From Coleofasciculus sp. LEGE 07092 (GTDB lineage: Bacteria; Cyanobacteriota; Cyanobacteriia; Cyanobacteriales; Coleofasciculaceae), in the NCBI RefSeq assembly GCF_015207375.1, contig NZ_JADEWY010000079.1:1-32817 (forward strand): a DNA stretch of 32,817 bases, in the 5' to 3' direction. The notes beneath the pieces are model-generated. The model saw only the letters and a program-made list of their open reading frames with translations. It searched no databases and was not told the DNA's origin. Numbering within the stretch: the stretch's first letter is position 1; each line of letters begins with the position of its first letter. Positions 5,331 through 20,005 of this stretch are shown here, in pieces. A program made the position numbers and the translations under genes.

Positions 5331-5624
5331 ATGATAATGTTTAATCTTCTATCAACTGAATACAACTCTCGGATTCTTTGCTACTATATGAATGCCACCC
5401 CTTCTATTCAGATTATTCGGATTGCGGATAGTCCTAACTTGAGTTTTGAGCGTGTGGTTTTTCCTCTACAACGTCTCTTTTTTGAAGCCCTACCTCAAGC
5501 CCATTTAGAGATCTATAAGAATAAATTCGGCGTTGCTACTCTATCCGCGAGTCTTTTGTGTGACTTCTTGCGGGTTGAACAAGAGATAGAAACTGATAGA
5601 ATGAGTTATCTAAGCACCCGATAG
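5331..5624 (+). CDS. DUF1830 family protein
   Basis: A 97-residue protein recognised as DUF1830, a small family essentially restricted to cyanobacteria. The hallmark run is ILCYYMNATPSIQIIRI followed by FERVVFPLQRLFFEALPQAHLEIY, covering most of the family's usual length. Function is unknown; no catalytic residues or membrane helices stand out, and it appears to be a small beta-rich soluble domain. The ATG at 5331 is used, but one at 5337 is equally possible, since no clear ribosome-binding site separates them. It is third in a same-strand run of small genes, 86 bases after the previous one and 18 bases before the membrane peptide gene. Confidence 0.8.
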   Translation: MIMFNLLSTEYNSRILCYYMNATPSIQIIRIADSPNLSFERVVFPLQRLFFEALPQAHLEIYKNKFGVATLSASLLCDFLRVEQEIETDRMSYLSTR

Positions 5625-18256: not shown

Positions 18257-18826
18257 ATGGCTTATTTATGGTACAAGGCATTCCACCTGATCGGCGTTGT
18301 CGTTTGGTTTGCTGGGTTATTCTACCTGGTGCGTCTTTTCGTCTACCACGCGGAAGCTTCGCAGCAACCAGAACCAGCCCAAAGCATTCTTAAACGTCAA
18401 TATGAAATCATGGAAAAACGTCTTTATCACATCATTACCATGCCAGGAATGGTGGTAACAGTCGTGATGGCAATTGGGTTGTTAACGACTGAACCTGAGG
18501 TTCTGAAAGACGGTTGGTTACATATCAAGCTGGCTTTTGTCGTCGCTTTGCTGGCTTATCATTTTTACTGCGGTCGGCTCATGCGGCGGTTGGGAACAGG
18601 AGAATGCAAGTGGACAGGTCAGCAGTTTCGATCACTCAATGAAGCACCAACAGTCCTGCTGGTAGCGATTGTCTTGCTAGCGGTGTTTAAGAACAGCCTG
18701 CCGACTGATATCACGGTTTGGGGGATTTTTGGTCTGATTATTGCTATGGCAGTTACGATTCAACTTTACGCCAAAAAACGTAAGCGGGATAAAGAAAAAG
18801 TGTTGGCAGAGGCATCTAACGGATAA
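18257..18826 (+). CDS. hemJ: Protoporphyrinogen IX oxidase HemJ
   Basis: A 189-residue multi-pass membrane protein of the HemJ (slr1790) type, which oxidises protoporphyrinogen IX to protoporphyrin IX for haem and chlorophyll synthesis. It opens MAYLWYKAFHLIGVVVWFAGLFYLVRLFVYHAEA, with the family's conserved His in the first membrane helix. Four hydrophobic segments are visible, including IITMPGMVVTVVMAIGLL, LHIKLAFVVALLAYHFYCGRL and TVLLVAIVLLAVFKNSL. I chose the ATG at 18257 because GAGGAGA sits about ten bases upstream and the protein then starts at the usual family position; an upstream in-frame start would add only a polar stub (QQQRRQI). The C-terminus is basic. It converges with the CDF gene. 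Confidence 0.9.
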   Translation: MAYLWYKAFHLIGVVVWFAGLFYLVRLFVYHAEASQQPEPAQSILKRQYEIMEKRLYHIITMPGMVVTVVMAIGLLTTEPEVLKDGWLHIKLAFVVALLAYHFYCGRLMRRLGTGECKWTGQQFRSLNEAPTVLLVAIVLLAVFKNSLPTDITVWGIFGLIIAMAVTIQLYAKKRKRDKEKVLAEASNG

Positions 18827-18960
18827 CACAGTCACTAAACAATTATTGGCGTTATCTTCTATACCTCTTGGTTTGGTGAGAAATCCAACCGAGGGGAGTC
18901 AAGAGGGTAAAATTTGAGTCTGAGCAAATATTGGCGATCGCTTTGGTGTGGTTTTCCCAG

Positions 18961-18980
18961 CAGAAAGCGATCGCTTTCTG
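18961..18980. repeat. Perfect 20-base palindrome centred on a HIP1 octamer
   Basis: CAGAAAGCGA followed by its exact reverse complement, with GCGATCGC at the centre. It lies between convergent hemJ and the CDF gene and is a reasonable bidirectional terminator stem, although no T-run follows. The HIP1 core extended on both sides is unusual. Confidence 0.55.
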
Positions 18981-19022
18981 GTTAAGAGCAGCGATCACAA
19001 TGATTAACTTTCCCTTATCTGT

Positions 19023-19075
19023 TGTGGAAAACTAACCTAATTTTGTGGAAAAGTACTCCTATCTGTGGAAAAGTA
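19023..19075 (-). promoter_or_regulatory. Three DnaA-box-like sites in tandem
   Basis: TGTGGAAAA (minus strand TTTTCCACA, the form reported for cyanobacterial DnaA boxes) occurs exactly at 19023-19031, 19044-19052 and 19064-19072, the last two extended to TGTGGAAAAGTA. Spacing is 21 and 20 bases, so all three lie on the same helical face and in the same orientation. It sits in the convergent gap just beyond the CDF stop. A DnaA-titrating site or part of an origin is possible; simple local duplication is the alternative. Confidence 0.5.
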
Positions 19076-19087
19076 AGAGGATATGGA

Positions 19088-20005
19088 TTAAAAACCAATC
19101 TGATCAGACTTGTAAGCGGGAGGTTCGACATGAATCAAAACGCGAACCGGATTAAAGCGTTCCCCTAGGCGATTTTCAACTTCCTCAGTGATTTCATGGG
19201 CACTTTCCACATCTTTGGCATCGACAATCATGTGCATTTCAATGAAAACTTGCCGCCCCAATACACCCCGAGAAGCAATGTTGTGACAGTTCACGACGCC
19301 CGGAACTTCCATGGCAATCGATTGAATCACTTCCGGTGCTATTGCTACTTCATCAACTAACCACGGCAAATTCTCTTTCAAAACCACCCAACCACTGCGA
19401 AACACTAACAGGGCAACCGGAAACGCCAGAAAAACATCTAGCCACTGTAGCTGGGGTAAATTTAACAACTGTCCTTGCCAAATGCCAATTAACCCAACCA
19501 AAACCGTAATCGTTACCCAAACATCGCTCATGGTGTGGTACGCATCGGCAATCAAAATCGGACTTCCTACTCGCTTGCCAACATTGCCCTCATAAGAGGT
19601 AACGAAGATATTGACACCCAGTACAATCAATAGCAACCACAATTCTGGAGCCGAGATATTGACAGTGGTAAGACTGCCCCCAATCCGCTTGATGGCTCCG
19701 TGAAGAATTTCAAAACAGGCAATTCCTAAAAAGGCAGCGATGCCCAACGCTCCCACCGCTTCAAATTTCTGATGCCCGTAGGGATGATCGCGATCGGGTT
19801 GGGGGGAAGAAAACCGATTGGCAATCAAACCCAAAATGTTATTGGCACTATCAGTGACACTATGCAAGGCATCGGCTTGCAAGCTCAAAGAGCCTGTTAA
19901 AAATCCCACAACTCCTTTGAGTCCCATCACCACTAGATTCAGCAGCAAGGTAATCAGCAAGACTTGACGAACTTCAGCACGGTTGTCTGTTGGCATAGGT
20001 GTCAC
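19088..20005 (-). CDS. Cation diffusion facilitator (CDF) metal transporter
   Basis: A 305-residue CDF transporter that exports divalent metal (probably Zn2+ or a similar ion) in exchange for protons at the cytoplasmic membrane. Several hydrophobic helices are visible, and both metal-site motifs are present: ADALHSVTD in helix 2 and ADAYHTMSD in helix 5, each with H-x3-D. Residues about 215-305 form the cytoplasmic domain (VVNCHNIASRGVLGRQVFIEMHMIVDA...VRVLIHVEPP) with the His/Asp residues that bind metal between subunits. The ATG is at 20005. Specificity for Zn, Fe, Mn or Co cannot be fixed from these motifs alone. Confidence 0.92.
   Translation of the reverse strand: MTPMPTDNRAEVRQVLLITLLLNLVVMGLKGVVGFLTGSLSLQADALHSVTDSANNILGLIANRFSSPQPDRDHPYGHQKFEAVGALGIAAFLGIACFEILHGAIKRIGGSLTTVNISAPELWLLLIVLGVNIFVTSYEGNVGKRVGSPILIADAYHTMSDVWVTITVLVGLIGIWQGQLLNLPQLQWLDVFLAFPVALLVFRSGWVVLKENLPWLVDEVAIAPEVIQSIAMEVPGVVNCHNIASRGVLGRQVFIEMHMIVDAKDVESAHEITEEVENRLGERFNPVRVLIHVEPPAYKSDQIGF

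Follow-up and report, generated by a model that had tools for sequence, protein, structure and literature searches.

DNA replication is started by the protein DnaA, whose control in cyanobacteria is poorly known. The closest described systems are clusters of DnaA boxes that lie outside the origin in Escherichia coli and Bacillus subtilis. At datA of E. coli, all essential boxes face one way, with an essential IHF site between them; IHF is required and HU is no substitute. The cores of DARS1 and DARS2 are each described as three boxes at fixed spacing, with box I opposing boxes II and III (both systems as presented in PMC5742627). Because datA and DARS2 need IHF, E. coli biochemistry is not simply transferable. 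Titration by chromosomal boxes has recently gained support in E. coli, according to PMC12371093. In B. subtilis, several intergenic DnaA-box clusters (DBCs) lie outside oriC. One passage of a review states that removing six clusters leads to early initiation, whereas another passage of the same review gives the clusters no significant role in initiation (PMC5295017).

In cyanobacteria, clusters of TTTTCCACA are described as marking origins, and the origin of Thermosynechococcus elongatus as separated from dnaA (PMC4674748). The same source reports that domain IV of Cyanothece DnaA bound paired TTTTCCACA boxes but did not clearly bind a single box. Several cyanobacterial lineages no longer depend on DnaA for replication or have lost dnaA altogether, and the passages of Ohbayashi 2020 on this loss and on roles that DnaA may have in transcription name no sites of the kind described here (PMC7198777). 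Within the open-licence literature, we found no title or abstract reporting extra-origin DnaA-box clusters in cyanobacteria.

The locus described below is, like datA, an extra-origin cluster of boxes that all face one way. It differs from datA, with its wider box intervals and IHF site (PMC5742627), in packing three boxes into 50 bp at intervals of two helical turns. It shares with DARS1 and DARS2 a three-box core at fixed spacing but carries all three boxes on one strand. Like the DBCs, it is intergenic and outside oriC; unlike them, the cyanobacterial sites occupy two loci with fixed neighbors and strict spacing throughout the class. A further difference is that the E. coli control sites keep a conserved distance, whereas the distance of the cyanobacterial triplets from dnaA is not conserved.

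A box triplet in a convergent gap

The window, by which we mean the whole 32,817-nucleotide stretch of DNA that was analyzed, is contig 65 of a 296-contig draft genome (6.71 Mb) of Coleofasciculus sp. LEGE 07092. The nine-mer TTTTCCACA occurs in it three times, on the minus strand throughout, and these are the only exact TGTGGAAAA boxes in the whole window. The earlier note had described same-orientation copies 21 and 20 bp apart, the last two sharing TGTGGAAAAGTA, within a convergent gap, and all of this was found as claimed. The features are as follows.

18257 to 18826, plus strand: hemJ (protoporphyrinogen oxidase HemJ), left neighbor; TIGR00701 over cut-off
18827 to 19087, no strand: convergent intergenic gap holding the triplet, 261 bp, delimited by gene ends
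18981 to 19008, no strand: possible accessory stretch GTTAAG...GATTAAC, with similar stretches seen by eye at the matching place in the six related hemJ/CDF loci
19023 to 19031, minus strand: predicted DnaA box 1 (TTTTCCACA), invariant at 7/7 hemJ/CDF loci
19044 to 19052, minus strand: predicted DnaA box 2 (TTTTCCACA), starting 21 bp from box 1, invariant at 7/7 hemJ/CDF loci
19064 to 19072, minus strand: predicted DnaA box 3 (TTTTCCACA), starting 20 bp from box 2, invariant at 7/7 hemJ/CDF loci
19088 to 20005, minus strand: CDF zinc-efflux transporter gene (Cdf31 type), right neighbor, with its stop codon at 19088 and the triplet following its 3' end; NF052602 over cut-off

The number of copies is less unusual than had been estimated. 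The expectation of 0.25 nine-mers per window given earlier rose to 0.53 in dinucleotide-preserving shuffles, 3 of 100 of which held at least three copies anywhere in the window. The improbable part is instead the clustering of the boxes. The 6.71-Mb genome has 102 exact copies of TTTTCCACA and 40 of its reversal; at the density of the former, the expected number of same-strand triplets spaced by 20 to 22 bp is about 5e-8.

To judge conservation, we used 79 loci gathered by the hemJ protein alone and thus blind to the boxes, since the relaxed search pattern used below itself requires three TGTGGAA. A CDF gene lies near hemJ in six of the 79 loci, each of which has the triplet at the CDF 3' end with spacings of 21 and 20 bp, so that the triplet is indeed kept beside hemJ in relatives. 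In Symplocastrum torsivum (L035), hemJ is 1.4 kb off, beyond a further open reading frame, and the triplet remains beside the CDF gene. Across the window and the six loci, invariant columns made up 27/27 of the box positions, 6/23 of the linkers, and 4/60 of the flanks (box versus linker, seven sequences, P = 1e-8). Together with the fixed context, this difference between box and linker columns points to conservation by selection. We therefore describe the triplet, a close group of three consensus boxes away from oriC, as a conserved extra-origin cluster of predicted DnaA boxes.

The probability that the triplet arose by chance, or through a 20-bp unit recently duplicated in tandem, is negligible. 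Regular spacing would fit such an origin, and in the dnaA-less genome G109 the word does lie in a perfect tandem repeat of 21-bp units. However, the expected number of chance triplets is minute, Tandem Repeats Finder called no array at the window's triplet, and whole units there are not alike head to tail. A recent duplication is ruled out for the window locus because the linkers differ between copies and species while the boxes are invariant over seven loci.

We found no sigma-70 promoter-like or terminator-like match within positions 18700 to 19300, and a terminator or promoter reading was dropped. A phage source was also dropped, as positions 18800 to 19120 had no match among 50,697 phage records. 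Several other sequence features lie near the boxes. A stretch similar to the window's GTTAAG...GATTAAC (18981 to 19008) is found equally far to the left of the triplet in the six related hemJ/CDF loci. Positions 18934 to 18980 contain a pair of GCGATCGCTTT copies at a distance of 33 bp as well as a 20-bp palindrome that includes GCGATCGC, which we take to be the HIP1 word. An imperfect 24-bp repeat occurs at 18835 and 18920.

The earlier note had raised the possibility that the triplet is part of an origin, unlinked to dnaN here. The lack of linkage was borne out: dnaN and dnaA are both on contig C279, in the order dnaN, five exact boxes (5476 to 5591), dnaA. The origin reading itself was rejected because this conventional cluster lies on another contig. 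GC skew within the window revealed no switch that stood out from the window's other swings. Clusters of TTTTCCACA do mark cyanobacterial origins as described in PMC4674748, and the boxes of the dnaA-dnaN region are likewise set at multiples of the helical turn. But those origins adjoin dnaA or dnaN, often have boxes on both strands, and use one-turn spacings too, whereas the group of sites to which the triplet belongs has spacings of 20 to 22 bp only. We consider it very improbable that the triplet belongs to an active or relict replication origin.

Two other kinds of box arrangement were encountered. On contig C252, a back-to-back pair of boxes (L112:1131-1148) forms the palindrome TGTGGAAAATTTTCCACA. 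Rich clusters of boxes in mixed orientation lie away from dnaA and dnaN in genomes of 2.5 to 3.3 Mb (L176, L177, L178, and L179), and these are perhaps origins separated from dnaA, as in T. elongatus.

Two loci with fixed neighbors

Triplets of the exact nine-mer with free spacing (9 to 39 bp) were found in 52 of 386 genomes of the phylum, all of them in the window's class. A relaxed triplet (three TGTGGAA, 19 to 23 bp) was found in 174 of 388 class genomes and 90 of 160 genera; the reversed control gave one match in each search. The free spacings cluster at multiples of the helical turn (90 triplets, with overlapping ones counted apart). The sites differ in which multiples they use: all 30 spacings at guaA/CDF sites are 20 to 22 bp, and 33 of 40 at DUF2811 sites are 21 to 22 bp (six are 11 to 12). 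Among 76 spacings at dnaA-dnaN sites, 28 are 11 to 12 bp, 32 are 20 to 22 bp, and nine are 30 bp.

We classified by neighboring genes 134 distinct sites among the matches listed, after merging those with identical core and 20-bp flanks. Most of them fall at two loci of fixed orientation. Locus B lies beside guaA (always left, plus strand) and/or the CDF gene (always right, minus strand) and accounts for 44 of the 134 sites among the matches listed, the window's triplet included. Locus C accounts for 58, which lie 206 to 632 bp from a match to DUF2811 (PF10929); with the boxes read in the TGTGGAA direction, the DUF2811 gene is invariably a left-hand, minus-strand neighbor. Eight sites are at dnaA or dnaN, and one adjoins hemJ only. 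Nine of the remaining 23 share a right-hand neighbor with guaA/CDF sites, and 14 were left unplaced. Both kinds occur once in the window's genome. The window's own site consists of three exact boxes; C86:3449, upstream of a DUF2811 gene, combines a pair of exact boxes with one further TGTGGAA. This DUF2811 gene is located as follows.

L111, 2911 to 3132 (contig C86 of the window's genome): DUF2811 gene (PF10929), with the boxes upstream

To the right of the class-C (DUF2811) boxes lies ATAAGAATTGCAAA, which resembles the GTTAAG...GATTAAC stretch of the window.

Locus B is far from universal, and many dnaA-bearing genomes are without it. Its triplet was found at none of 29 guaA loci examined in genomes hand-chosen mostly for lacking strict triplets. 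Relaxed triplets are scarce or missing in families f6, f25, and f26. Groups of boxes nonetheless occur upstream of DUF2811 in three f6 genomes and in two genomes of 2.7 to 2.8 Mb (G401 and G036).

The arrangement of genes bears on whether DnaA controls transcription of a neighboring gene from this site, a role that it plays from non-oriC boxes in other bacteria according to PMC7198777. The position of locus C upstream of DUF2811 would suit such a role. However, the window's locus B has no promoter-like match around it and lies between two gene ends, for which reason a promoter element is unlikely, and both its left and its right neighbors change while the triplet stays. On this evidence, transcriptional control is improbable.

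Two positional explanations were also rejected. A fixed distance from dnaA did not hold, as the sites range from about 4% to 50% of the chromosome in the complete genomes placed. A polar fork barrier was set aside because triplet orientation relative to the expected fork follows no rule in single-contig genomes, as worked out by hand arithmetic with the origin taken at dnaA and equal arms:

G398: locus B against the fork, locus C with it
G027: loci B and C with the fork
G011: locus C with the fork, locus B too near the antipode
G099: locus B against the fork
G515: locus C and a second site against the fork
G066 and G002: locus C against the fork
G121: locus C with the fork

Boxes and the presence of dnaA

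Thirteen near-complete genomes of the class, all from the window's order, lack a full-length dnaA; six have no TIGR00362 match and seven have weak ones. Genomes less than 90% complete were set aside (G442, G453, G558, G598, and G614, with no dnaA match, and G564, with a weak one). The triplet was present in 23 of 49 dnaA-bearing genomes of the order versus one of the 13 without dnaA (P = 0.011, falling to 0.001 if the tandem repeat described next is left out; no correction for kinship), an association that is weak when taken alone. The sole match among the dnaA-less genomes (L189:4144-4203, in G109) is a perfect 21-bp tandem repeat of 2.9 copies containing TTTTCCACA. None of the 13 therefore carries a genuine triplet.

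The region upstream of DUF2811 was compared between 16 dnaA-bearing and four dnaA-less genomes, from a hand-chosen set of 30. The best three-box score (maximum 27) was at least 20 in 15 of the 16 dnaA-bearing genomes and 18 in G076. Reversed-sequence controls scored 15 to 20, a range whose best value G107 and G139 merely equaled. Two of the dnaA-less genomes that have DUF2811 showed nothing (G054, 17; G374, 15), and two held remnants (G183, 23; G147, 21). In alignments with the dnaA-bearing G143, which is of the same genus and has intact boxes, G183 has one good box and two damaged ones. The first box of G147 is lost in a gap, and its DUF2811 frame has two stop codons. Within a single family, the boxes are kept in G121, G368, and G326 and absent in the dnaA-less G054 and G374; dnaA is present in G368 and G326, and none was found in G374. 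This decay, seen at the DUF2811 site and not at the window's own locus, supports the view that DnaA uses the class-C boxes and, given that the two sites are built alike, those of the window as well.

It is decidedly improbable, in turn, that a different DNA-binding protein uses the same word. Single copies of the word are abundant even without dnaA, as such a protein would predict. But the nine-mer and its helical phasing are identical to those at dnaA-dnaN clusters, including the window genome's own, and the absence of a genuine triplet from the 13 dnaA-less genomes and the erosion of the DUF2811 site in dnaA-less relatives would not be expected if another protein were responsible. Lone copies of the nine-mer are poor evidence of DnaA boxes because their excess over the reversed word persists in the dnaA-less G054 (112 versus 19, compared with 102 versus 40 in the window's genome). 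Counts of single TGTGGAAAA versus the reversed word were 47 versus 27 in G183 and 37 versus 26 in G147, a smaller excess than in G054, in a comparison that also covered G143.

A proposed DnaA control site and the DUF2811 gene

We think it reasonably probable that the triplet is an extra-origin DnaA-binding site, either titrating or datA-like, that restrains re-initiation. The boxes point the same way at intervals of two helical turns; each would hold one DnaA molecule, and the three molecules could stack cooperatively along a single face of the DNA. The site could then draw DnaA from the pool available to oriC, which is the titration proposed for the B. subtilis clusters. Alternatively, a datA-like complex might promote hydrolysis of DnaA-ATP. 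Either way re-initiation would be restrained, and the site would be one of two such conserved loci in the genome, the second being that upstream of DUF2811.

Since domain IV of Cyanothece DnaA binds paired boxes, three in-phase boxes should form a strong cooperative site. A titrating or datA-like site is favored because of this paired-box binding, the position between gene ends, the one-way boxes of datA, the effect of removing clusters in B. subtilis, and the support for titration in E. coli. DnaA binding is the firmer part of the proposal, and a negative effect on initiation is more weakly indicated. As a group, locus B sites keep no position near oriC, their distance from dnaA ranging widely in complete genomes by hand arithmetic. 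Of the readings offered in the earlier note, the genome comparison thus favors DnaA boxes and a titrating site over an origin.

DnaA could also bind the triplet with the opposite outcome, raising DnaA activity through DARS-like nucleotide exchange, or could serve chromosome organization there. We regard this as unlikely. The three-box cores and fixed spacing of the DARS sites resemble the triplet, and the freedom of position relative to dnaA is compatible with such roles. However, DARS box I opposes boxes II and III in the description of PMC5742627, whereas the window's three boxes face one way, as likewise do all triplets that our pattern search could find.

The restraining site proposed above may be part of something larger. 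Somewhat speculatively, the two triplets fixed across the class (guaA/CDF and DUF2811) could be datA-like sites of a separate cyanobacterial system of DnaA control, with the DUF2811 protein as a dedicated partner or regulator of DnaA, and lineages abandoning DnaA-dependent replication would lose the system. The triplet, which many cyanobacteria retain in the same gene neighborhood, probably helps decide when DNA copying may start. Two conserved sites of about 50 bp and one small gene, all of which tend to follow dnaA, would offer direct handles on replication timing.

The DUF2811 protein, encoded outside the window, is a candidate DnaA-linked protein that strengthens the DnaA reading and may prove a larger discovery than the triplet. 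From its sequence we guess that it is a ribbon-helix-helix protein, a guess to which the AlphaFold model, too poor to be informative (mean pLDDT, 58; pTM, 0.33), gives no support. Searches returned no solved relative (best E value, 0.72) and, among Pfam families, only DUF2811 itself with a meaningful E value, and we found no paper on DUF2811 in the open-licence literature.

The distribution of the gene is more telling. DUF2811 is missing from 12 of 334 good genomes, and 10 of the 12 are among the 13 genomes without dnaA (10/13 versus 2/321 others; Fisher P = 4e-15, not corrected for kinship). The remaining two, G399 and G485, are draft genomes that have dnaA. An open DUF2811 frame without dnaA in G054, G183, and G374 counts against a strict rule. 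Because the ten genomes belong to four groups (f9, f14, and two genera of f6), DUF2811 was lost at least about four times. These absences do not reflect general decay, since guaA, used as a yardstick, was strongly matched in 29 of the 30 genomes chosen.
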